Origin: an uncultured Mycoplasma sp.
Lineage (GTDB): Bacteria; Bacillota_I; Bacilli_A; Mycoplasmatales; Mycoplasmoidaceae
Assembly: GCA_947177535.1 (NCBI GenBank)
Contig: CAMWUV010000004.1
Span: 1 to 13,473 of the forward strand
Reading direction: 5' to 3'
DNA length: 13,473 bases
How positions within the stretch are numbered: the first letter of the stretch is position 1; each line of letters starts with the position of its first letter. The position numbers and the translations under genes are program-made. A model generated the notes under the pieces. That model was not told the origin of the DNA. It saw only the letters and a program-made list of their open reading frames with translations, and made no database searches. Positions 4-13,343 of the stretch are shown piece by piece.

Positions 4-921
4 TTAAATATCTTCTTCAATAACTTTAATTTCACCAAAGTATGTGTCTGCTGCTGTATTATACATATCAAAATCAATTGTTTTTGAAGCATCTTTCATT
101 CTTTCGTTTTCAGTAGGAATATCAATTAATACTTTATAGTCATAATGTTGAGTGTATGCTAAATTTGATCCATTATATAAGTGCTTATATAAAACAGTTA
201 TATACTTATGCGATAGTGCTCTTTCATCTTCTATTAAAATACCATCTAAATCATTATTCTTACAAATTTGTTCAACATAATCATTTTCAATTTCACCACC
301 ATAAATAATTGGTAAATTATTTCCAATGTGATAGCCAAATTTATTTCTTAAAAATTCTCTAATTATTTTAATAGTATCAAAAACAAATTTTTCATCAAAT
401 CTTGTACTTATTTCACCTAAAAATGTTGGTTTGTATACTAAATAAACTTTATCAATTAAATCCAAACCATCAATACCATCAAAAATCTGATTAATTTGTA
501 AATTTAAATTTTCTTTGGTATTTTCTTTAGATAAATCTACTCTTGTTTCTTCAATGAAAACAACAGCTTTTATATCATTCTTAATTAACTTATGTAATTT
601 TGCATTAATTTGATAATTTTTTTCTTTGAAATCTAATTTAACATCTGGATGACCAATTAAAGTTGTTTTAATACCATAATCTTTTAATTCAATTCAAGAA
701 GTACTACCAGTATGATTACCTAAAGAGGGCAATGAAATGTTTTGTGCAATTACTTCAATGTTCTTTTCACCAACTAACCCTAAACTTGGAATAATTCCTA
801 AATATGAAGGCGCAACCATAACTTTAACATTTTCAAAATCAGAAATATTTTTAAAGAATTTGTTTATAGAAATGAAATCAGCACTCATTTTTCAATTTGC
901 AATTAAAACTTTTTGTCTCAT
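4..921 (-). CDS. Degenerate triosephosphate isomerase-like protein (TIM-barrel paralogue, probably inactive)
   Basis: 305 aa when TGA is read as Trp (W10 and W76 are both TGA). The protein aligns with TIM along its whole first 250 residues: IANWKM at 7-12 (catalytic Lys is K11), AQN near 60, LIGHPDVK around H91 (TIM: VIGHSERR), VYKPTFLGE at 162-170 (TIM: AYEPVWAIGTG), IIYGGEIEN at 205-213 (TIM: YGGSV) and DGILIEDERAL at 226-236 (TIM: DGLLVGGASL). Lys11 and His91 are kept, but the catalytic glutamate is replaced by K164. The flexible loop-6 AIGTGK sequence and the phosphate-binding GG of loop 8 are also gone, so isomerase activity is very unlikely. Residues ~251-305 are a polar, acidic tail absent from ordinary TIMs (about 250 aa). 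Start: ATG at 919-921 with SD AAAGAGGT at 928-935. The gene follows the iPGM-like gene by 12 bp and is probably co-transcribed with it. The homology is clear; a structural or regulatory role is inference. Confidence 0.88.
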
Positions 922-927
922 ATTATT

Positions 928-935
928 ACCTCTTT
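928..935 (-). promoter_or_regulatory. Ribosome binding site of the TIM-like gene, overlapping the upstream stop codon
   Basis: The minus strand reads TAAAGAGGTAATAATATG. The SD core AAAGAGGT lies 6 nt before the ATG, and its first two bases belong to the TAA stop (934-936) of the iPGM-like gene. This fixes the start at 921 and suggests translational coupling of the two genes. Confidence 0.75.
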
Positions 936-3900
936 AACCTTTACTAATTTGATTAGCTTCTTTTCAAATTTCACTTAACTGGTTGTAATGTTTTACTTTA
1001 TTTTTATCTAATTTAAATCTTCTTTCTTCTTCAACTAAAATTTGTGCATCAACTGCAACATCCTCTAAAAAGTTATCAACATTTAAATGTTCATCAATTC
1101 TTTTTTGGACTCAACTCTTAGTTAAATCATATTCTGGCTTTGTACTTATTCTTACATTGATGTCATCTACAACAACTTTGTCACCATTTTCATCAAATTC
1201 AAGTTCTTCTTCAGTTTCATCTATTTCAGAATCACTATCATTTCATTCAATAGTTACATTGTCAAATTCTTTATATACATTTGCATAATGTAAAAATCTT
1301 TCAGAAAATTCTTTTTGCTTACTTAATTCTACATTTTCATCAAATTCACCATCATAAACAATAGATTCTTTGGCAAGATTAATTTTATTTTTATAATTCA
1401 TATCGAATTTATAAACAATTTTTTTATTTTCTGTATTTAAAGATTTTGCGTGATTTTTTAAGTCATTATTATATAGTTTGTAAACTCCAACAATTTTTGC
1501 AACCAAAGGATTTAAACTAATTGCTGGTGCACTAAATATATCTGAATTTGAATATTCTTTATTTTTTTCATATAAATAATTAATATTTTCAATATATTTT
1601 TGATTAAATAAATCAATATTTGGTATATTTTCGTTTACAATTTGAACAACTTCTTGGAAATAATCATAATAAGAAATTGTTGCATATAATTTTTTTTCAT
1701 TTTCAATTTCTTTGTCATTTTTTTCTTCAATAAAATCATCTTCACTGTTAGACGGATCCATTGCAGATAAATCTACTTTATTAGCAACATAATTTTCAAA
1801 TACTTCTTTAACTTCATCAGCTACTAATTCATAAAATTGAGTAATCAATAAAGCATCATTTGTTTTTAAAATTTCTAACTCTGCTTTTTGAGTTTTTTTA
1901 AAGTACAAGAAAGGTAATGTATTTGAATAAACTTTATTAACTAATTGTTCATTTTTTGATAAATCAAAAGTTCTAGCAACATTTTGTAATAAATTAAATT
2001 TAATTGAATTAATTCATTTATCATTTCTAACAAAATTAGTTGTTCAAATCTTTTTGTCAAAATATTTGTTTGAAAGTTTAGTTATTTTTTGTAATTTTAT
2101 TTCTTTATCAAATAATGTTTGAAAAGTTTTTTTATAATTAATATCCAAACCAACAAAATCTATTTTGTTATATTCAACATAATCAATTAAAATGTTGTAA
2201 AGTTTTTTTCTGGTTTCTGGTGTTAATAAAATTTTGTCATGAATTTTAACAATTTCTTTTAAAACAACATATTTTTGTTTATCACTAATAAATTGTTCAT
2301 CTTTTGAAAATTCACTATAAAAATTCAATTGATTTTTTTCAAAATTTTTAATTAAATCATCTGAAATTGTTTCTTTTCAAATTTTAAAAGAATCATTTAA
2401 ATTTTCTTCTATTTTTGTTTTAGTAAAATTTGGATCAATTAAAGAAGTGTAGAATAATTTATTATCTAAATCTAAAGATTCAAGTGTAGATAATATTGAT
2501 GAATATACACCTAAAAAATTACTCTTAATTTTTTTTGCTGATAAATCACCATTAGTAAAAACAAAAGGTACAGTTGATGATTTATTTTGTGGAATAATAT
2601 TTAAATGTTTGTCTAGCATTTTTTCTGCTGCACCATAAGCTGATGTTAAAGCAATAATATTACCAGTACATCTACAGAAATTAATTAATCTTCCTAAATG
2701 TTTATCAAAATTTTCAATTGTTGATATTAATTGATTTAAATCAGCTGTTCTAGCAGCTTCTGCAATCATTGGTGCCAAAACAAAAACAACATCATATTTG
2801 CCAATCGCATCAATTGTTTTATCAATTAGAATTTTTGAAGATAAAGAAAAATAATCTTTATCAGTACTACTGTAAGGCGTAGATAAAACTTTTCTTTCAA
2901 TGTTTGAATCTTTATTATTGTGACCAAAAAATTTATTTATGAATCCTTTTTTATGATTCATTCCTAAAACTAACACTTTATTATTATGTTTTGAAATAAC
3001 ATTTGTTAATAAATTATCTTCTCTTCCATCAGTTGGATTTGCAAAAAACAATGCATCAACATCTGTGCCATAAATAGGAGCTAAACTTGATAAATAAATT
3101 CCTTTTAGTTTTGGTTCAGTTTTTATCATTTTTGCAAGAGGGGCAAAATCATCTGAATCACTATTTAAAAACAATGCTATATCTTTTTTTGATAAAAAAC
3201 AATCATCAATCAAACCATTGTATGCAGGTTCAATATTTGCATCCATTATTTGATTAGCTAAGTTTTCGCTTGCATATTCAGTAGCATTACTAAATGCTTT
3301 TTCACCTAAACCACAAATTGTTTCAAAATAATTCATGATGTGTGTATTTTCTAAATATGAATGACCTTTTTTACCAAAAACATGATTTCTTCCAGCAATT
3401 GAAATAATTGGAGTATTTCTTTTTATTAAAAATTTATTAAATTCTTCTAAATTTTCACTAAAACTATAAATTTTTTCTTCTTGACCATCACCTATTAAAT
3501 GTAATACAGGTCTTAATCCTTTTTTGATTAAAATATTAATAATGTAATAAAAGTTAACTAAATTTAACTTAGTGTTATTTTTAGATAGCATTGAAAAAAT
3601 ATGAACTAATTTAGAATTTGTTTCATTTGATCTTTTAACTAAATTGTCAAATACTTCTAAATTATGTAAAGATTTACTAGTTATTTGTTCATTCAATAAT
3701 TCTAAATATGTTTTAATATCAGTCTGACCATAAAACATTTCATAAAAATTTGAATCCACATCTCTTTTAATAGAAGGGTTGCTTTTTTTAGGAACTAATG
3801 GATCTTTTTTTCTATCATTACTAATTATTGCTCAAGGATAAATACCAGAAATTAAATAATTTATATTTGGCTTATTAGCTAACTTTAAATAATTTCCTTT

Positions 3901-3957
3901 TCATTTTTTATTTAATCCTATACCTTCAGTAACAAGAAATACTAGAGTGTTTTTCAT
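934..3957 (-). CDS. Degenerate cofactor-independent phosphoglycerate mutase-like protein with a ~500-aa C-terminal extension
   Basis: 1007 aa, read through eight TGA (Trp) codons (for example 3901, 3832, 2377, 2044, 1243, 964). Residues 1-~507 follow iPGM (about 510 aa) from end to end: LVFLVTEGIGL at 5-15 (iPGM: LIILDGFGL), LANKPNINYL (KKPNFDRY), ISIAGRNHVFGKK (iPGM: ASISGRYYSMDRD), IALTSAYGAAEKM around 437-447 (iPGM: AIITADHGNAE), STVPFVFT (TTNPVPVI) and a closing TSLI at 504-507. The active site is lost: the first metal Asp is E11; there is no NSEVGH (catalytic Ser); HSH, GRD and NPDMVGH are unrecognisable; the metal pair Asp-His of ADHGN is A440-Y441; and the AHTT His is Asn. Residues 508-1007 match no family I know, are rich in Lys, Glu, Asn and Tyr, contain acidic stretches at ~733-756 and ~906-932, and have no membrane segment. 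Start: ATG at 3955-3957, SD AAAGGG at 3964-3969. The gene lies 23 bp after the 1311-aa surface protein gene. An enzymatic role is improbable; a cytosolic scaffold is inferred. Confidence 0.88.
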
Positions 3958-3963
3958 ATTTTT

Positions 3964-3969
3964 CCCTTT
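3964..3969 (-). promoter_or_regulatory. Ribosome binding site of the iPGM-like gene
   Basis: AAAGGG on the minus strand lies 6 nt before the ATG at 3957, within the 23-bp gap after the surface protein stop codon (3981-3983). It supports the start that gives the iPGM-like N-terminus LVFLVTEGIGL rather than the internal GTG at 3759. Confidence 0.7.
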
Positions 3970-3980
3970 CTTTTAATAAA

Positions 3981-6900
3981 TTAAAATCTATCACTATCTA
4001 ATTTCAGTAAGTCTTCAACTTTATTAACATCAACATATCTTTTCTTTTTACTTTCTTCAGATAATCTAACATCAAGAACTTTAGATAATTTTTTAATGTC
4101 TCTTCTAGTTTTAAATAAGATTATGTAAAGAATTGGCGTAAGTAACAGTAAAAGTGGAACAATAACTGCAACTATAACAATTAAAATATTTGTTCCATCA
4201 TATCTAATAGGTGCAGTTGCAAACCCTGTATAAGTTCTTTCAGTAGAAGCAACAACAACACCACTTTTATATAAATTAACTGTTAATTTTAAGGTACCTT
4301 TAATATCATCATAAGAAGTAATTACTTCTTTTTCTAAATCATTACCTAAACTAATGTTAACTAAAGAAGCAATTTGTTCATCTGATAAATTAGAAGGAAT
4401 TATATTTTTTAAAGCTAAAGCAGATTCTGAAGTATCTAAAGCTAAAGAAACTGAATAATCAGCATTTTGTAAAGTAAATCCAGAAAGAATACTACTATAA
4501 TTGTATGTTGAACCATCTATTGTAATTCTTGCATACATTGACAATGTTCCTTGTGAATCATCTGGAGTAATTGAAAGTGATAAAGCATCAGGATTTTGCT
4601 GAATTTCTTCTGATAAACTAGTTAATAAAGAATTTGATAAATTAGAAACTAATTGAAGTCTTTCTAAATTAGTTTGAGCTGAACTTTCAATTAAACTAAG
4701 TGCATTAGATGCTGTTGAGGATGTAAGAGCAGCATTTGAATTAGTCAATTCATAAAAAGACTTTCAAATAATACTATCAATTGAATTTTGAATTCCACCA
4801 CTTAATCCATTTGTTAAAACTGTAGAGAAAGATTTTTCTGGAATTTTTACTGTCTTAGTTTGTCCTTCAACTTCTTGTTGTTCTCATCAATCATAAAAAG
4901 TTATAGTAACTTGAATAGCACCTGATGAGCTCATTGGAATAACATCAACTTTATGACTTAATTGTTGAGCTGAATTTTCAAAAACAAATAAGTTTGGGAA
5001 ATTAGTTTCTAAATATGAAGGTGTTATTTGAGATGGTTTTAAAGAATTAAAAGCATTAACATCTATAGTACCTCAAGAAAACTTAGGCATATCTGTTGGT
5101 GCACCTGATTGATTTGTATTAGATGTTGTAAAACCAGAAAATTCACAAGAATATGATGAAAGTAAACCACTTATTTCTTCATTAAATCTAATTCCAATTG
5201 TTAAAGTCCCTAATGAATCATTTGGATTTATAGTTAGCGTAACAACATCCTTATTATTTTCATCTAGTCCTGCTATTATATTAAAAATATAATTTGACAT
5301 GTTCATAAACAAAAATAATGCAGATTTGTCATTATTTATTAAAGACACAATTGAAGAAGGTGTTAGCGTGTTTAAATTATACGTTGCAGCAGCTTGACCA
5401 CTACCGACTGTATAAGTTGAATTTAATACAGTTTGATTGCTAATGAAATCTAAAAAAACATTTTGATTTGTAGTAAAATCTTTTTTAAAAACTTGAGCAG
5501 TTACAAATGAATATCTAACATTTGTTTTATTCCCTATTTTTGGGACAATAACAGTAACATATAAATATCCTTCAGAATCAATTGGATAAATTTGAATATT
5601 TGTTGATGAAGGTTTTTCAATTAAACCATTTGTTAATAATTTTGTATTTGAAAAAGCATTACCAAAAATTAAGAAATCATCAATGATATCATTTGCAGTG
5701 ACAGCTGATGGTAAAGTTCCTGAATATTTGTTTATTAATGACGTTTTTAATAATGCATTTTCTTCCAAATATTGATCAGTTACTAGATTAACAGAAGAAT
5801 CTAATCCATTTAGTACATCAACATTAAAATAAGGATTATTTGAAGACCCAATATCTATTGATTGTGTGTAATTTAAAAGTAACTTATTATCAATTCAAAC
5901 AGCATCAGATTTAATTTTTACAGTTAAAACACCAGCAACATCATTTGGTTCTAAATACATTAAATAATTTCCGGCATTTTTAATTGTTAGAATTTTTTCA
6001 AGTTCTTTCTCTGTTACTTCACTAGGTAATAAACTTGTTATTTCAGCAGTAACACTACTTCTTTCAGCAACAGTAATAGAGCAATTTTCATTAGTGAAAG
6101 TATAACTATTAGAAGCTAATCAAACTGAAGTTGTATTAGTAGAATCTATAACTCCATTAGATATTTTTCTAAGGCTTTGATAAAAATTAATAGAAACTGT
6201 ATAATTATTTGTCTCATTAATTTTACTAATTGAACTTACTTTAGCATCAAAAATTGGTTCACCAAAAACAGAATCATATGAAGAAACACTAAAAAATTTA
6301 CTTGCATTTGTTTTAATGAATGTTGAAAACTCACTAAGTTCACTAGTTCCATTATCACTAACTTTTTGAAAAAGTATGTTTGATGGAATTTCAGATTCTG
6401 ATAATAAACTTGAAGAAGCAACAAACTCAGTTCTACTATTAATTGATGTACTACCTAATTGACCAACTAAATTAGTTCCACTAAATTGAATAATAGATCC
6501 ATCTGTCATTTGTGCATATCAACTTGCATCACCAGGTCTTGTAAATAAATTAAAAATTAACTTAGAGTCACTTCCACTAGCTGTTAAATTATTAAAATTA
6601 TATAAAAGTGAAATGCTACTAAAATCTGATCTAATTCTAACAGCTGTATTATTACTAAGTAAAGCTACAAAATCACCACTAGCAGTATTTGAAGTATTAG
6701 TATACAAATTACTTATACTAACAATATAAGCACTTGCAGTAGATGCAACTGTTAATAAATGAGCAGGTGTTGAAGCATTAAAAGAATTACTGTTTATATC
6801 TGTATACAAATATGTAGAAGTATTAAAAGAAGATAAAATTAATCTTGTATTAAACTGATTATTAGCAACTGTAGCAGTTAAATTATTTTTTCTACTAGAT

Positions 6901-7916
6901 GTTTTCATTAAAGCTACTTGCTCTGCAGATAAATTAATGCTATACAATGAATTAGAGTTTATTACTATATTCCCACCAGTAGCAACTCTCATAATTGTCA
7001 CATAATTATTTATAGCATTACTATCATTTAAAGAATTTTGTTGAAACACAAAATAAACATAATTACTATCAGTATAATATTGAGTAACTTTTGAAGTTAA
7101 AGTAGCACCTGTTTTATTAGTATCAATAAAATAGTTATTAATTAAATTTTTATCTAATGAAATAGTATTTTCACCAGAATTTGTTCAGTTATTAACATTA
7201 GTATCTGTTGATTTAAAATTTACAGTAGTTAATTTAATATTATTATTATTATTTTCTGAAGTTGCTTCTATCCCATATACAGTAATATTAAAAGTATTAA
7301 CTGAATTAACACCAATATAGAATTTTGTATCAGTTGAAAGTGTGGTATTTATTTTAGTAGCTTGAACTTTACTACCATCATCAACTTTAATTAAAACTGC
7401 ATAATAAGATGAATCATTTCCTTTTGCTATAGCTACAAAATATGCACTTCTATTTAAATAAGGTGGAACATATGCTATTGCCAAATATTCTTCTGCATAA
7501 GTACTTCCGTTTAAAGCATTATCAGTGTGATTTCATATTCTGCTACCATCAGACATCTTATAATATGAAATTCTATTAAATTTATCTGTAATTGAACCAT
7601 TAACTGTAGCACTATTATTTTTATAAGTACTTTTTGAAGTTGTTAATAAAGCATAAGTTGAACCAGAACTATCAAAAGCTATATTTTGAATAGGTGAATT
7701 TAAATTACTAGTATTTTGTAGTTTATTTCAAGGTAACAGATAAGAAGCAGTAGTATCAGTGTCTGCATTTAATTTACTTGAAATTTTAGAAAAACTACTT
7801 GAATCATCACAATTTATACTAATTTTTTGTGTTGCTACAAAAGTACCTGCAGTTAAAACTCCAGATATTCCAATTGTTAATAAAGATGCATAAATTTTTT
7901 TCTTTAAATTTTTCAT
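3981..7916 (-). CDS. Large surface protein, 1311 aa, with lipoprotein type-17-like repeats and a C-terminal membrane anchor
   Basis: One continuous frame with ten TGA (Trp) codons, including a WW pair at 4884-4889; codon-by-codon reading found no TAA or TAG inside. The N-terminus has a basic start (MKNLKKK) and a hydrophobic helix at ~9-28. C36 has no lipobox, so this is a signal anchor rather than a lipoprotein signal. Residues ~60-480 are Asn/Ser/Thr/Tyr-rich beta-type sequence with propeller-like strands (MSDGSRIW near 121-128, MTDGSIIQFSG near 470). From ~480 to 1235 come divergent modules of the pattern P-x-D-x-x-G-x-L-x-V ... x-GF: ~652-690, ~773-810 (IYPIDSEGYLYVTV), ~892-929 (INPNDSLGTLTI), ~1111-1147 (ITPDDSQGTLSMY) and ~1197-1232. 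These resemble the mycoplasma lipoprotein-associated type-17 domain (PF04200). A membrane helix at ~1243-1268 is followed by KTRR and a 43-aa charged cytoplasmic tail. Start: ATG at 7914-7916, SD AGGT at 7924-7927. Exported adhesin-like or gliding-related function is inference. Confidence 0.85.
7239..7253. repeat. Trinucleotide repeat (att)5 inside the 1311-aa surface protein gene
   Basis: Five ATT units on the plus strand encode five consecutive Asn (around SENNNNNIK). A change in unit number would change the Asn count but not the frame. It lies in the Asn-rich N-terminal half of the surface protein and may only reflect its composition. Confidence 0.6.
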
Positions 7917-7923
7917 ACTAGTT

Positions 7924-7927
7924 ACCT
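7924..7927 (-). promoter_or_regulatory. Ribosome binding site of the 1311-aa surface protein gene
   Basis: The minus strand reads TAGGTAACTAGTATG; AGGT is 7 nt from the ATG. The whole gap to the upstream gene's stop codon (7939) is 22 bp, too short for an independent promoter and terminator, so this gene is probably read from the 905-aa gene's transcript. Confidence 0.6.
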
Positions 7928-7938
7928 ATTTAAATTTT

Positions 7939-10656
7939 TTATTTTTTTTCTTTTTTATTTTTGTTTAAATTTAAATTTTTATTATTATTTTTTTCTAGCA
8001 AATTATTATGATAATCTTTAAAATTTCTTATTCTTGCACGTCTTAACAATAAAGCTAGTAAAACAATCCCTAATGTAACTGAAATAATAGTTGTAACTGA
8101 AACACTAATTACAGCAGTTAAATTTTTTGGAGGATCAAATCTTGTATCATTTTCAAAATAATTAGTAATAAAACCTGTAATTCTTGTAGCAAAAACTCTG
8201 TTTGTCATATTTTCATCTTCTTGATTAAAAAGTGGTATATTAACTTGAACCAATAATGATGAATCACTTAATACAGGTGTTATTTGAATATTATTAAGTG
8301 ATAATGTACCATCTTGAAACATAACTATATTATTTAGATAATAATCAATCACATCTTGTTTCGTAACTCTATTTAATGGAATTGATAGTAGTTCAGATGA
8401 AACATTGTCCTGTGGTAATCAAGAGAAAGAAACTAAACCTGTAGTCGATTGACTTTTTGCAAATCCTGTAAAAAATTGTGAATAAATATAATTATTTGGA
8501 TTTGTAGTATTATCAGTTTTTTTACTTAAAAATACAGTTATTGTTCCATTTATATCATCTGGTAATAAACTTATATTTAAATTGTTTTCACTTTCACCAA
8601 TAACACTTGTAATGAATGAATTGAATGGAGAAGCTGTTGATGATGTAATTAAACTATAAGCAACACTTGATGGAATAGTACTAGGAAAAGAAGGGTTTTC
8701 ATTGATTACAGCATCATTTGTTTTTCAAGTAACAGTTAAAACATCATTTTGTCCATCATACTTGTAATATGGCAAAGAAAAAGACTGTTGAAAAATTTTA
8801 GTTTCTCCTGATCCATTTCAATTTTCAAATTCTAATCTTACTGTTATAGTTTTATTATCTATTCCTGATGATGCCTCATAATTACCTGTTATTTCATTGT
8901 AATTAGTATTAGTTTCTAAAACAGGAGCCATTGGATCACTTGTAGTTGGTTCACCATATAGAATAGTAGCTTTTCTATTCATTGATAAAATAGATGAAGT
9001 TGTATTAATAAATTGATTAGTAAATAATCTTACAAATTCATTATTAACTTTAGTTTCATCTTTATTAGCACTTGATGGGTCACCTATATATTTGTTTTTA
9101 TTAAATTCATTTACTACATCAGATGATGAAGTAAAACCGTAATTAGATAAAACATCAGCTGTTTTTCAAGAAAGAATTAAATTATTTGCAGCATTTTCAT
9201 TAACTGCAAAAGTTGCTGATGGAAGATTTAAATCATACGTTGAAGAAATAATATGACCTGTAAAAATACTAAATTCATTATAAGTAAAAATTAATTGTAA
9301 ACTTCCATTTTCATCATTAGGAATCGTTTCAATATTTGTAATCGTTAAAGATGAATTATTATTATTTATATCTTGTAAGATACCACCAGTAATATCACTA
9401 CTACTAGATGCTTGATTATTTGTTGCACTAGAATTGTAGAAATTAAATTGATGATTATCATATGAATAAGTCAAAATTGGCTTAGGATTACCATTTGCAC
9501 TATCTTTTAATCCTATACCACTATCAAACAAACTAATTAATGAAGTAGTTCCGCCTAATGGACTAGTAAATTGTGAAGGTGTTAAAGTTGAAACTTGTTG
9601 ATTTTCTCCTGTTGCACCATTAAATAAAGAATAGCTACTATCAATCACTCAATTTCTAAAATTTTGTTCAGCATTAACATTTATTGTTTTTCTAGTTCCA
9701 TCACTACCTAAAAAACCACCAATATGTTTGGTTATAGTAATTGTTTTTTTATCAGTATCATTTGCATTATTGCCACCTGTTGATTCTTCAGGAAAAGAAT
9801 TATTCAATCAATCAGATTTAGAAGTATTAGCAAAAACAATTTCAACTTTGTATAAACCAATATTGCTAGTTGTATTATTTCCATTTGCATCAACTACACT
9901 AACAGTAATTTTTGTATATGGTTCATTAGAACTTTCATTACCATCTAAAAGTGGTGGGAGACTATTAGTATTAAAAAAATTATTTCAAATATCTTCAGGA
10001 CCTAAATTTGTAACTGTTGAATTTAATACAAATTGTTCAATAGAATCTTCCGAATTTCACACAAGTTGGTATTTTTCTGCAGTAATTCAATTATTTAAAT
10101 TAGTTATTTTTTCTGTTGAAAAAACATTATTAGCAGTTGGTGCAGCAGAAGCATCACCCTTATATTTATTTAATAAACTAGTATCAATAGTATCGTTTGT
10201 TTTGTAATTTACATTACTTGAATTTCCAGCAGTAGATTTAGTTGCATCTGCAAAAGTTGTTGTGTTACTAGTACCACTAAAATATGTTTGATAAACTAAA
10301 AAATTAACATAACCTTTGTTTATGTTTTGTTCAGTAACAGGAAGAATAACAACAGATCAAGATGTAACTGTAGAATTAGGTGTTAATACATTTTCAAGGT
10401 CTGAATTTAAAACTTGATCAGCACTCTTATTCAAGGGTTTTTGAGTGTAATTTACACTAAAAATTGCATCAGTTTGAGAAGTTGTATTATCAGTAAGTGC
10501 ATTTAAATTATTGTTTATATTTTTAAAGTTTTCATTTTTTTGATTATAAAAAATTAAACTTGAAGAAAATGCAAAAACTGAAGTAATTCCAATTGTACCT
10601 AAAATTACAATTTTTTTTTGTTTTTTCAAAAAGGCTAGTAAAGAATATTTTTTCAT
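7939..10656 (-). CDS. Surface protein, 905 aa, with N-terminal signal anchor, type-17-like modules and C-terminal membrane helix
   Basis: Continuous frame with ten TGA (Trp) codons and no TAA or TAG. The N-terminus is MKKYSLLAFLKKQKK, followed by a hydrophobic helix at ~16-37 with no lipobox Cys. After it comes LNALTDNTTS (51-60), matching LNADTDTTAS in the neighbouring 1311-aa protein, so the two are related. The body (~60-845) is Asn/Ser/Thr-rich with modules resembling PF04200: ~436-481 (IPNDENGSLQLIF), ~588-633 (KTITVRLEFENW) and ~690-735 (LLPDDINGTITVF ... FFTGF). A membrane helix at ~847-871 is followed by RRARIR and a Lys/Asn-rich cytoplasmic tail of 34 aa. Start: ATG at 10654-10656, SD GAGGT at 10665-10669. 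It is the first gene of the probable four-gene operon. An A9 tract in codons 13-16 could permit slippage. It is probably a cell-surface adhesin or structural protein; the exact function is unknown. Confidence 0.85.
10611..10619. repeat. Nine-base A/T homopolymer in codons 13-16 of the 905-aa surface protein gene
   Basis: T9 on the plus strand (A9 in the gene) reads as part of Gln13 plus Lys14, Lys15 and the first base of Ile16. An A6 tract sits one base upstream of it on the coding strand. It is the longest homopolymer I noticed in the window. At this length the gene is in frame; gain or loss of one base would stop translation just before or within the signal anchor. Confidence 0.7.
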
Positions 10657-10664
10657 TTCTATTT

Positions 10665-10669
10665 ACCTC
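10665..10669 (-). promoter_or_regulatory. Ribosome binding site of the 905-aa surface protein gene
   Basis: The minus strand reads TGAGGTAAATAGAAATG. GAGGT lies 8 nt before the ATG, a good SD that decides the start at 10656. Confidence 0.7.
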
Positions 10670-10696
10670 AAAACAATACCAACGATAATGTGAAAG

Positions 10697-10702
10697 ATTA
10701 TA
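10697..10702 (-). promoter_or_regulatory. Candidate -10 box for the surface protein / degenerate enzyme operon
   Basis: A perfect TATAAT on the minus strand lies about 40 bp before the ATG of the 905-aa gene, in the 164-bp gap after galU (10657-10820). No convincing TTGACA-like -35 is seen at 16-18 bp, which is common in mollicutes. The rest of the gap is nearly pure A+T with two perfect but weak inverted repeats (10758-10774 and 10801-10819). Neither is followed by a T-run in the minus direction, so I do not call a terminator. Confidence 0.4.
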
Positions 10703-10820
10703 AAATTAATCATTTATATATATTTTAGTTTATTGAAAATCATAAATCAAACATTTTTTATAAAATTTTTATAATAAATAAATTTTTTTATGTATAATTA
10801 AATTTTATTAAATAAAATTA

Positions 10821-11723
10821 TTATTTATTTTTTTTCAAGATTTCTTTTAAATAATTCATCAAATCTTCTTTAATAAAAGGATTGGCTAATGAATGATCAA
10901 TTGTTGCTTTTAAATAACCAAACCTTGATCCTATATCATATCTTTTACCAGTAAATAATTTTGCATAAACATCTTCTTTTTTTGATAAATTTAATAAAGC
11001 CTCAGTAATCCCAAGTTCTTTCATATTATCAACTTTTATATTTTCAAGTTCATCAAAAATAGCAGGTGTTAGAATATATCTTCCTAAAATTGCAAAATCA
11101 CTTGGACTTTTTTCTTCACTTGGTTTTTCAATCATATTTTTTATTTTTGAAAAACTATGTTTTTCATTAATTTTGTCAAATAAATCAACAATACCATATT
11201 TAGAAACATCTTTTTTTAAAACTTTTTGAATACCAACAACTGATTTTTGTTTTTCATCAAATAAATTAATACATTGTTTTAATGCAGGAATACTATTTGA
11301 ATCCGTTTGAATAACAATTTCATCACCTAAAATAATTCCAAACGGTTCATTTCCTACATATTGCTTTGCACATAAAATTGCATTACCCAATCCTTTAGGT
11401 TCTTTTTGTCTAATGTATTGAATTCTAGCCATATCTGCTATTTCTCTAATTTGAAAATATTCTTTTTCTTTATTATTTTGTTTTAATCTTTCTTCTAACT
11501 CAAAAGAGTAATCAAAATAATCCATAATTGAATTTTTTGATTGTGAAACAATAATAAGAATATCTTTTATTCCTGAATTAACAATTTCTTCAACAATAAA
11601 TTGAATAGCTGGTTTGTCCAAAATAGGCAACATTTCTTTAGGCATAGCTTTGGTTGCAGGCAAAAACCTTGTACCTAGTCCAGCAGCAGGTATAATAACT
11701 TTTTTAACTTTTCTTAATTCCAT
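10821..11723 (-). CDS. galU: UTP-glucose-1-phosphate uridylyltransferase (UDP-glucose pyrophosphorylase)
   Basis: Makes UDP-glucose from UTP and glucose 1-phosphate in the cytosol, supplying glycolipid, polysaccharide or galactose metabolism. 300 aa, the usual bacterial GalU length, with no Trp. Motifs in order: nucleotide-binding IIPAAGLGTRFLPATK at 10-25 with PKEMLP at 28-33; EPKGLGNAIL at 108-117; LGDEIV at 132-137 (Asp134 for metal and sugar nucleotide); KYGIVD at 175-180; IEKP at 198-201; GRYIL at 214-218; and GKRYDIGSRFGYLKA at 259-273. All key positions appear intact, so it should be active. Start: ATG at 11721-11723 with SD AAAGGT at 11731-11736. It lies 60 bp after the PH-like gene and 164 bp before the surface protein operon, so it may be a separate unit or share the PH gene's transcript. 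Confidence 0.95.
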   Translation of the reverse strand: MELRKVKKVIIPAAGLGTRFLPATKAMPKEMLPILDKPAIQFIVEEIVNSGIKDILIIVSQSKNSIMDYFDYSFELEERLKQNNKEKEYFQIREIADMARIQYIRQKEPKGLGNAILCAKQYVGNEPFGIILGDEIVIQTDSNSIPALKQCINLFDEKQKSVVGIQKVLKKDVSKYGIVDLFDKINEKHSFSKIKNMIEKPSEEKSPSDFAILGRYILTPAIFDELENIKVDNMKELGITEALLNLSKKEDVYAKLFTGKRYDIGSRFGYLKATIDHSLANPFIKEDLMNYLKEILKKNK

Positions 11724-11783: not shown

Positions 11784-13343
11784 TTATTCTTTAAAAAACA
11801 TTAATCACTTTAAATCATATGAACTTGAATTAGGAGACGAATCATCTATTAATTGTGATCTTTCATTATATGCTTTATAGGTTAATAAATCTTCATCAAA
11901 AATTAATTCATATTTTCTAAAAATATCACCATTAGGTTTTTTGTCTTCAACAAAAATTTTTATATATTTTTTTTGTAATTTTGAAAATTCATTATAAACA
12001 TTAAAATAATATTTAGTTCCTAAAAACAAAATGCCATCATATTTAAAAACATTTAATTTTTCATTTGTTTTTAAATTATTATAAAAAAAATCTAAACCTG
12101 GTCTTCCATTTTTTTCAAGAAATGAAATAGTTTGTGAAGATCTTAATCCACTTCTTATTTCATCATTTATTTTGTATTCTTTTGCTTTGAAAATATCAAT
12201 AACATTTGATGATCCTACTTTTGAAATATCAATGTATGCACCGTTACCATTTGCATCAACTCCTAAAACTTTATCAGTAACATTGTGCTTAGTATATTCA
12301 ATTCAATTTCTAGAAAAAATTAAACGATTTTCTAAATCATCATTTGTAGTATCGTTAAGTGGTTTTGTTTCTACAATTACAGGAACTGTATTTAATTTTA
12401 AAACTTTATTTTGAAGGTTTATTGCTGTATTATCAATTCCATTTATAGCTAAATTTTTAGATTTTAATTTATTTAATTCTTTTGTAATATCAGCCAAAAT
12501 TGTTTTTTTACCACCAGGCAAAAGTGTTTCTTCATTTGTAAATAAATTTGCTAAAAAAAAGCTACTAAATGAATTTGTATTTGTAATTAAACTATCATTA
12601 ACTACTTTTTTATTTTTAGTTGATTCAATAGAATCTGCTAAAAGATTTGAATGACTAACTAAATCATCTGAAACTATTTCTTGCTCTTGAATTAATGATT
12701 CATAAAAAGTTTCAGAAGGCTTATTTTTTTTATTATTTAAATTTTCAGATTTTTCAATTAGTAAATCTTCAATAAAATTTTCTTTTCAAACAAGATTTTC
12801 ATTCTCAACAAAATTTTCACTTGTTTTTTTGTCTTCATCTTTTTTTATCATAGAAGACAGTGATGAATATGAAAAATTTTCATCAATTAAATCATATTTT
12901 TTTTCTTCATTAGATACCTTTTCTAAAAAGGATTTAACATATATTTCTTTTTGATGTTTAAAAATATCTTTAATTTTTTTAAATTCTTCTTTTCCTACAC
13001 CTTTGATCTTAAAAGTTTTATAATTTTCAGTTTCTATTTCTATATATGATGTGAAATCATTTTTATCATTGTGAACAAAATTTAAACTTCTTATATCTTT
13101 ATATGTATAGACACCACAAAAATTGACTTTATCTTTTTCATCTCCAATGAATATTTTTTGATTGCTAAAACAAATTAACAAAGTGTTTTTTTTATGTCTG
13201 TAATAACCAACAAAAGCATAAATAGTAAATTCTCTTAAAGAATATTTCTTTTGAATTTTTTCATAAATTTTATTTAAATTTGCTTTCTTATTGAATGGTA
13301 CTCTCAATGACTTAACATTAAAATTATTATTTTCTAAAATCAT
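11784..13343 (-). CDS. Cytosolic protein, 519 aa, with an N-terminal bacterial PH-like domain
   Basis: One frame through three TGA (Trp) codons (12786, 12303, 11805), ending at TAA 11784-11786. Residues ~40-131 have the strand pattern of a YokE-type bacterial PH domain: IYAFVGYYRHKKNTLLICFS, then QKIFIGDEK, GVYTYKDIRSLNF, SYIEIETENYKTFKIKG, and a closing helix EEFKKIKDIFKHQ. The middle part (~140-270) is Glu/Lys/Ser/Asn-rich and probably disordered. The rest (~270-519), with VLGVDANGNGAYIDIS and a Tyr-rich stretch FLGTKYYFNVY, matches no family I recognise. There is no signal peptide or membrane helix. Start: ATG at 13341-13343, SD AGGA at 13350-13353. It precedes galU by 60 bp, but the context does not reveal its role. 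The PH assignment rests on pattern only. Confidence 0.75.

Follow-up and report, generated by a model that had tools for sequence, protein, structure and literature searches.

A four-gene Malacoplasma operon joining two predicted surface proteins to two catalytically dead paralogues of glycolytic enzymes

Analysis of a 13,473-bp stretch of DNA from the genus Malacoplasma (the window, which is the whole of contig G000:C4 in an assembly of 128 contigs) revealed an operon of four minus-strand genes running from position 10656 to position 4. The operon encodes two large proteins with predicted membrane anchors, S905 and S1311, followed by two paralogues of glycolytic enzymes, one resembling cofactor-independent phosphoglycerate mutase (iPGM) and the other triosephosphate isomerase (TIM). 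Judged by their residues, both paralogues are catalytically dead, and this holds family-wide. Both are nevertheless functional genes under purifying selection. The reading that we prefer, and to which we give an even chance, is that the operon encodes a surface machine for adhesion or gliding, with the dead glycolytic-enzyme folds as its cytosolic parts.

Reading of the open reading frames (ORFs) under genetic code 4, with TGA as Trp, bore out a preliminary description of four same-strand genes separated by 22, 23, and 12 bp in transcription order. Gene 1 (complement of 7939..10656; ORF, hydropathy, and homologues) encodes the surface protein S905 of 905 residues, and gene 2 (complement of 3981..7916; ORF and Pfam) encodes the surface protein S1311 of 1311 residues, with five Lipoprotein_17 stretches. 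Gene 3 (complement of 934..3957; NCBIfam, alignment, and model) encodes the iPGM-like pseudoenzyme of 1007 residues, and gene 4 (complement of 4..921; Pfam and alignment) the TIM-like pseudoenzyme of 305 residues. Purine-rich stretches resembling Shine-Dalgarno sequences (TGAGG, TAGG, AAAGGG, and AGAGG, judged by eye) were observed 5' of all four starts, as the same description had it.

The two pseudoenzymes

The TIM-like protein matches the Pfam TIM family at 121.3 bits and carries a C-terminal extension of about 60 residues (coordinates 7-186). Twelve TIM-like proteins were compared with 22 housekeeping TIM controls, using textbook residue numbers and roles. The position of the catalytic Glu165 is occupied by Lys in ten TIM-like proteins and by Met in the other two, with Glu in all 22 controls. 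Two glycines present in every control are also lost from all twelve: loop 6 has another residue in place of Gly171, and the phosphate site has Glu or Asp in place of Gly232. Asn11, Lys13, and His95 are retained in 12/12 TIM-like proteins (21, 21, and 22 of the 22 controls, with one gap), and the Thr of the dimer loop in 10/12. A tree of 11 of the 12 TIM-like sequences (G164 was left out) placed them in one branch apart from the 22 housekeeping TIMs, with support of 100/98. As the branches are long and the tree was rooted at the midpoint, a single origin of the TIM-like proteins is likely rather than proven.

The iPGM-like protein scores 94.5 bits against TIGR01307, for which the cut-off is 330.65, and its closest named relatives are from Malacoplasma sp. 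and Malacoplasma penetrans HF-2. Structure modelling divided it into an N-terminal domain (about 2428-3957, minus strand; also supported by alignment) and a C-terminal extension of some 500 residues (about 937-2427, minus strand). The model of the N-terminal half matches 1ejj with an E value of 3.2e-24, a TM-score of 0.83 by target length, and a root mean square deviation of 4.3, so by its predicted structure this half is an iPGM fold. The C-terminal half has no Pfam match and is predicted to be all-helical, partly with low confidence; the mean predicted local distance difference test score of the whole model is 73.5.

Comparison of 31 iPGM-like proteins with eight control iPGMs revealed that the metal ligands Asp403, His407, Asp444, His445, and His462 are retained in 0, 1, 0, 0, and 0 of the 31, and in all eight controls. 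By these column counts, no iPGM-like protein retains more than one of the five aligned metal-ligand positions. The position of Arg261 is Asp in 31/31, while the residue aligned to Lys336 is retained in 31/31 and Arg185 in 30/31; the controls retain all three. The column of the nucleophile Ser62, where the alignment is uncertain, holds Ser in 11 of the 31. The loss of active-site residues that the preliminary description reported for the two window proteins thus extends across both families.

Intact enzymes and selection

The check proposed with that description, for intact tpiA and gpmI in the same genome, found both on contig C5, where intact TIM and iPGM genes adjoin and are followed by enolase; this rules out the pseudoenzymes as the sole copies. 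Housekeeping TIM is present alongside the TIM-like gene in 8 of the 10 genus genomes searched. Housekeeping iPGM was found in 7/10 with two candidates scored per genome, those scored in G164 being two pieces of the iPGM-like gene. In G102 (93% complete) and G267 (78%), housekeeping TIM and enolase were not found, nor was a second iPGM among the two candidates scored; phosphoglycerate kinase (PGK) was found, and both genomes (L047 and L107) retain the TIM-like and iPGM-like genes. Since TIM, iPGM, and enolase are neighbours in the window genome, one assembly gap may explain these absences; otherwise, the pseudoenzymes outlasted lower glycolysis in G102 and G267.

The ratio of nonsynonymous to synonymous substitution rates (dN/dS) was estimated from Nei-Gojobori counts, a rough method. 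In comparisons of the window genome with G072 or G231, the TIM-like gene gave 0.031 and 0.041, the iPGM-like gene gave 0.096 and 0.117, and both surface genes fell within 0.19-0.26; against G072, two upstream neighbours described below, the 519-residue gene and the galU-like gene, gave 0.14 and 0.17. Comparison with M. penetrans, where dS is near saturation, gave 0.19 for the TIM-like gene, 0.23 for the iPGM-like gene, 0.53 for S1311, 0.52 for S905, and 0.23 for housekeeping TIM. Decay into pseudogenes is ruled out by these low values together with open, full-length frames in the eight genus genomes that hold the operon.

Strong purifying selection and the retained Asn, Lys, and His of the TIM-like protein would also suit two enzymes that catalyse something else on the same folds. 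We regard this as the least probable of the alternatives, given the altered metal-ligand positions in each of the 31 iPGM-like proteins and the replacement of the catalytic Glu of TIM by Lys or Met. Alternatively, the pseudoenzymes might regulate glycolysis through mixed complexes with intact TIM or iPGM, their proximity to surface genes being incidental. Folds identical to those of the housekeeping enzymes and the TIM dimer-loop Thr are compatible with such complexes. Against them, the TIM-like gene has stayed linked to the surface pair in two families, with housekeeping TIM located elsewhere, G102 and G267 keep the pseudoenzymes although housekeeping TIM and enolase were not found (the assembly gap could explain this), and the 500-residue helical extension suggests a different partner. 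We consider regulation through mixed complexes very unlikely.

Conservation within and beyond Malacoplasma

The four-gene order lies on one contig in eight of the ten genus genomes (the window genome, G018, G050, G072, G084, G087, G102, and G231), M. penetrans HF-2 included, where the genes lie at genome position 21.6-32.4 kb and the members looked up carry the names phosphoglycerate mutase and hypothetical protein. In the other two, the order is broken by contig ends. In G164, these split the iPGM-like gene into two pieces, on contigs C214 and C223. In G267, a contig starts inside the iPGM-like gene, and the surface homologues found, which lie on another contig and apart from each other, probably do not belong to the operon. 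A search of 298 genomes of the order detected the long iPGM-like protein in 10, exactly the ten genus members searched; the other iPGM matches listed are of ordinary iPGM length.

A search of the family (95 genomes) with the TIM-like profile identified two TIMs in G123, a member of another genus, one of them near an S1311-like match. Analysis of this stretch revealed an S905-like protein of 1103 residues, an S1311-like protein of 1403 residues, a 781-residue protein, and a TIM-like protein that has lost the catalytic Glu. Among 320 order genomes, the 781-residue protein has one relative outside G123, a 720-residue protein of Mycoplasma iguanae (G033), which belongs to another family. The order there is S905-like, S1311-like, the 720-residue protein, and TIM-like; two of the junctions are gaps, of 1 and 9 bp, and the third is an 8-bp overlap. 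A separate intact TIM is present. In both genomes, the TIM-like gene is followed by a fifth gene of about 1000 codons (L101:13578-16709; L113:17401 to L114:385), which probably encodes a membrane protein; a search of the remaining 318 order genomes did not find it. In the tree, the TIM-like proteins of G123 and M. iguanae are sisters (100/100), and the housekeeping TIM of M. iguanae clusters with the TIMs of its own family. Transfer between the two lineages would fit better than vertical descent.

The third gene of these two modules was compared with iPGM by profile methods. HMMER found nothing at an E value of 1, and the probability returned by hhalign for the G123 sequence by itself was 0.2%. 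When both third-gene sequences were used, the hhalign scores against two iPGM-like profiles, of which one includes housekeeping iPGMs as well, were 33.8 and 35.1, at a probability of only 6-8% (9% under another setting). These scores exceed those of all 120 shuffles of the columns, which peaked at 29.4 and 26.6. Among 38 decoy proteins, the best reached 25.3 on the first profile, and the six rows listed for the second reached at most 23.3. Against a profile of housekeeping iPGMs alone, the score was 18.8, below the five best shuffles. At best, the third gene would encode a very diverged iPGM-like protein. As this evidence is not conclusive, what the three lineages demonstrably share is limited to the surface pair and the TIM-like gene. 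The linkage for which the preliminary description proposed a check is therefore conserved in Malacoplasma, and recurs in two other lineages with a different or far-diverged third gene.

These arrangements bear on whether this is an ordinary operon of unrelated co-transcribed genes, with pseudoenzymes that have no functional tie to the surface proteins. No physical evidence of interaction speaks against such an operon, but the order of surface pair and TIM-like gene is constant in three lineages with different neighbours, one of them in another family. Every one of the 12 order genomes with more than a fragment of an S1311 relative also has the TIM-like gene. We consider an unrelated gene set improbable.

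The surface proteins

Hydropathy analysis of each surface protein identified a single strongly hydrophobic segment close to the C terminus, in agreement with the earlier proposal of membrane anchors with short tails. In S905, the transmembrane segment comprises residues about 846-874 (8035..8121, minus strand; hydropathy and alignment) and leads into a basic tail about 31 residues long. In S1311, it comprises residues 1239-1270 (4107..4202, minus strand), and the cytosolic tail of about 41 residues (3984..4106, minus strand; alignment) contains the motif V-x-x-[VI]-x-D-L-L. This motif was found in 9/9 operon-linked and 0/8 other Malacoplasma copies of S1311, although it was picked after the alignment had been viewed and the copies cover only part of the known paralogues. 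Structure modelling, which covered S1311 alone of the two, predicted a beta-propeller-like head at residues about 72-490 (6447..7703, minus strand), the blades of which were not counted singly.

S905 homologues are present in 10/10 genus genomes, the G267 copy not being linked to the operon. S905 has no Pfam match above the cut-off, and its relative in G123 contains two Lipoprotein_17 stretches. Searched against PDB sequences, the S1311 profile gave no match at an E value of 1, and the S905 profile matched no adhesin, only a receptor kinase through the transmembrane region. A search of 320 order genomes, in each of which two candidates were scored, yielded near-full-length relatives of S1311 in 11, a contig-truncated one in G267, and short matches only, of at most about 160 residues, in 11 others. 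The immunoglobulin-directed MIB-MIP system was considered and rejected, since no such Pfam or NCBIfam match was obtained at an E value of 0.1.

Extra tandem S905-S1311 pairs, in unchanged order, occur at L102, L046:630-7361, L047:13596-19938, and L042:14310-19999. In M. penetrans (G018), S905 and S1311 also form paralogue arrays (L105, 462-473 kb, and L104, 1037-1051 kb, respectively), with one S1311 copy appearing as two ORFs.

Such expansion in arrays is what would be expected if the surface pair were a host-interaction or antigenic system and the pseudoenzymes were cytosolic regulators or ligand sensors of its display rather than structural parts. The Asn, Lys, and His kept in every TIM-like protein and the Lys336-aligned residue kept in every iPGM-like protein could likewise mean that a ligand pocket is preserved. 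However, the changes at Gly232 and Gly171 of the TIM-like proteins make triose phosphate an improbable ligand, and the operon copy, unlike the arrays, is conserved in place. We hold a sensing or regulatory system of this kind to be unlikely, though it deserves more weight than the other alternatives.

Flanking sequence and upstream neighbours

Base 1 of the window is a contig end, which leaves relatives as the only guide to the 3' end of the operon. In G018, G050, G072, and G231, 284-368 bp separate the TIM-like gene from the start of the next gene on that strand, and the operon therefore probably ends there. At the other end, a 164-bp gap (10657..10820), the expected promoter site from the ORF map, separates the operon from an NTP_transferase family gene (10821..11723, minus strand; Pfam and synteny), presumably galU-like. 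This gene was not found at the corresponding place in G084, G087, and G102, and lies outside the module. Farther upstream is the gene for a 519-residue protein (11784..13343, minus strand; synteny), which is near the operon in several Malacoplasma and has neither a Pfam nor a PHROG match. A phage origin of this gene and of the surface genes was rejected, as none matched a PHROG. A scan for promoters and terminators gave matches no more frequent than in shuffled sequence, and no RNA element exceeded the Rfam thresholds. In G018, a 493-codon ORF that looks like a mobile-element gene lies between the galU-like gene and the operon (L040:1895-3376), and an ORF of this length with the same start sequence lies at L104:2073-3554.

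Proposed role

We infer that the four proteins form one complex, with a pseudoenzyme scaffold, that serves adhesion or gliding. The operon would be a dedicated envelope machine of Malacoplasma. Its two single-pass proteins would form the outer part and touch the host or substrate, one of them carrying its propeller head on a string of repeated domains. Their cytosolic tails would link to the iPGM-fold protein, with its helical extension, and to the TIM-fold protein, which would no longer catalyse but serve as structural parts of a cytosolic scaffold. A plausible place for such a machine is the attachment organelle used in adhesion and gliding. The preliminary description had already suggested recruitment of enzyme folds into a surface complex. 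Purifying selection, linkage, and the operon-only tail motif lend support to this part, while contact with the tails and a scaffold or ligand-sensing role are still conjecture.

M. penetrans moves protrusion-first when it glides, on a molecular basis described as without obvious similarity to that of M. mobile and M. pneumoniae (PMC9282661); a 2026 review places the species under attachment-organelle-driven motility (PMC13104615). This mode of gliding, together with the parallels to PGK and the fibril protein given below, makes adhesion or gliding the best guess. A bolder version, which is possible but rather doubtful, is that the operon is the core gene set of the M. penetrans-type attachment and gliding machine. 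It would then represent a third, independently evolved mycoplasma gliding system with glycolytic pseudoenzymes as cytosolic parts, later passed between distant mycoplasmas (the G123 lineage and M. iguanae). The proteome of detergent-insoluble material from M. penetrans was reportedly described by Distelhorst in 2017.

Several points weigh against a four-protein surface machine. None of the four proteins has an experimental link to another or to the attachment organelle, and conserved order alone may reflect co-transcription. The tail motif is present in 0/4 copies of G123 and M. iguanae, and the S905-like protein of G123 (L101:2570-5881) has about 230 residues after the transmembrane segment, against 31 in the window protein, so short tails are not general. 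In the modules of these two organisms, the third gene has no accepted sequence match to iPGM, and we know of no report on the motility of either. Some surface pairs lack pseudoenzymes of their own, namely pairs 2 and 3 of G123, some 8-23 kb from its module, and a second pair adjoining the operon in G084, G087, and G102; the pair is thus not strictly dependent on pseudoenzymes.

Comparison with known systems

A description of this operon was not found in the open-access literature searched, and any claim of novelty is limited to that literature. Its constituents are of kinds already known, namely enzyme folds as parts of mollicute motility systems and propeller adhesin pairs. In the gliding machinery of Mycoplasma mobile, a G1-ATPase twin motor with PGK (MMOB4530), a glycolytic-enzyme fold likewise occupies the cytosolic part, as is proposed here. 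PMC11864180 and PMC8406192 describe a glycolytic enzyme in the cytosolic portion of a machine that works with leg-like surface structures. The preliminary description had drawn a parallel to this PGK. Its presence in the motor stands, but it retains its catalytic residues and is expected to be the working PGK, the homologue with lost catalytic residues being MMOB4490, and the motor is an F1-like ATPase (PMC11864180). In the Malacoplasma operon, unlike in M. mobile, the enzymes are iPGM and TIM, both dead by their residues, and their genes share an operon with those of the surface pair. A Pfam search limited to the six window proteins matched none of them to an ATPase subunit.

The Nap complexes (P140-P110 and P1-P40/P90) consist of two large surface proteins with a C-terminal transmembrane helix and cytosolic regions, and the propeller of P140 is seven-bladed (PMC7280502). 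The operon resembles these complexes of M. genitalium and M. pneumoniae in its pair of large surface proteins, their C-terminal transmembrane segments, and a beta-propeller, here predicted for S1311 only. It differs in that the PDB search described above returned no match for S1311 and no such adhesin for S905. Nap adhesins were not named among the Foldseek and VIA matches listed, a listing that does not exclude them, and we know of no pseudoenzymes as Nap partners.

The Spiroplasma fibril protein offers a further likeness, as residues 1-228 resemble MTA/SAH nucleosidase (PMC9582952). It is a cytoskeletal protein that resembles a metabolic enzyme, although of another fold than those found here. 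Linkage of the fibril gene to surface genes is not known to us. With housekeeping TIM and cofactor-independent phosphoglycerate mutase, the pseudoenzymes have fold and ancestry in common, and they differ from them in lacking the catalytic residues and in carrying extra C-terminal parts. The genus-wide set of four genes is a short, testable candidate list for M. penetrans gliding. If the proposed machine is real, it would add to these known systems a clear example in which two enzymes from the same pathway became, together, non-catalytic parts of a surface machine.

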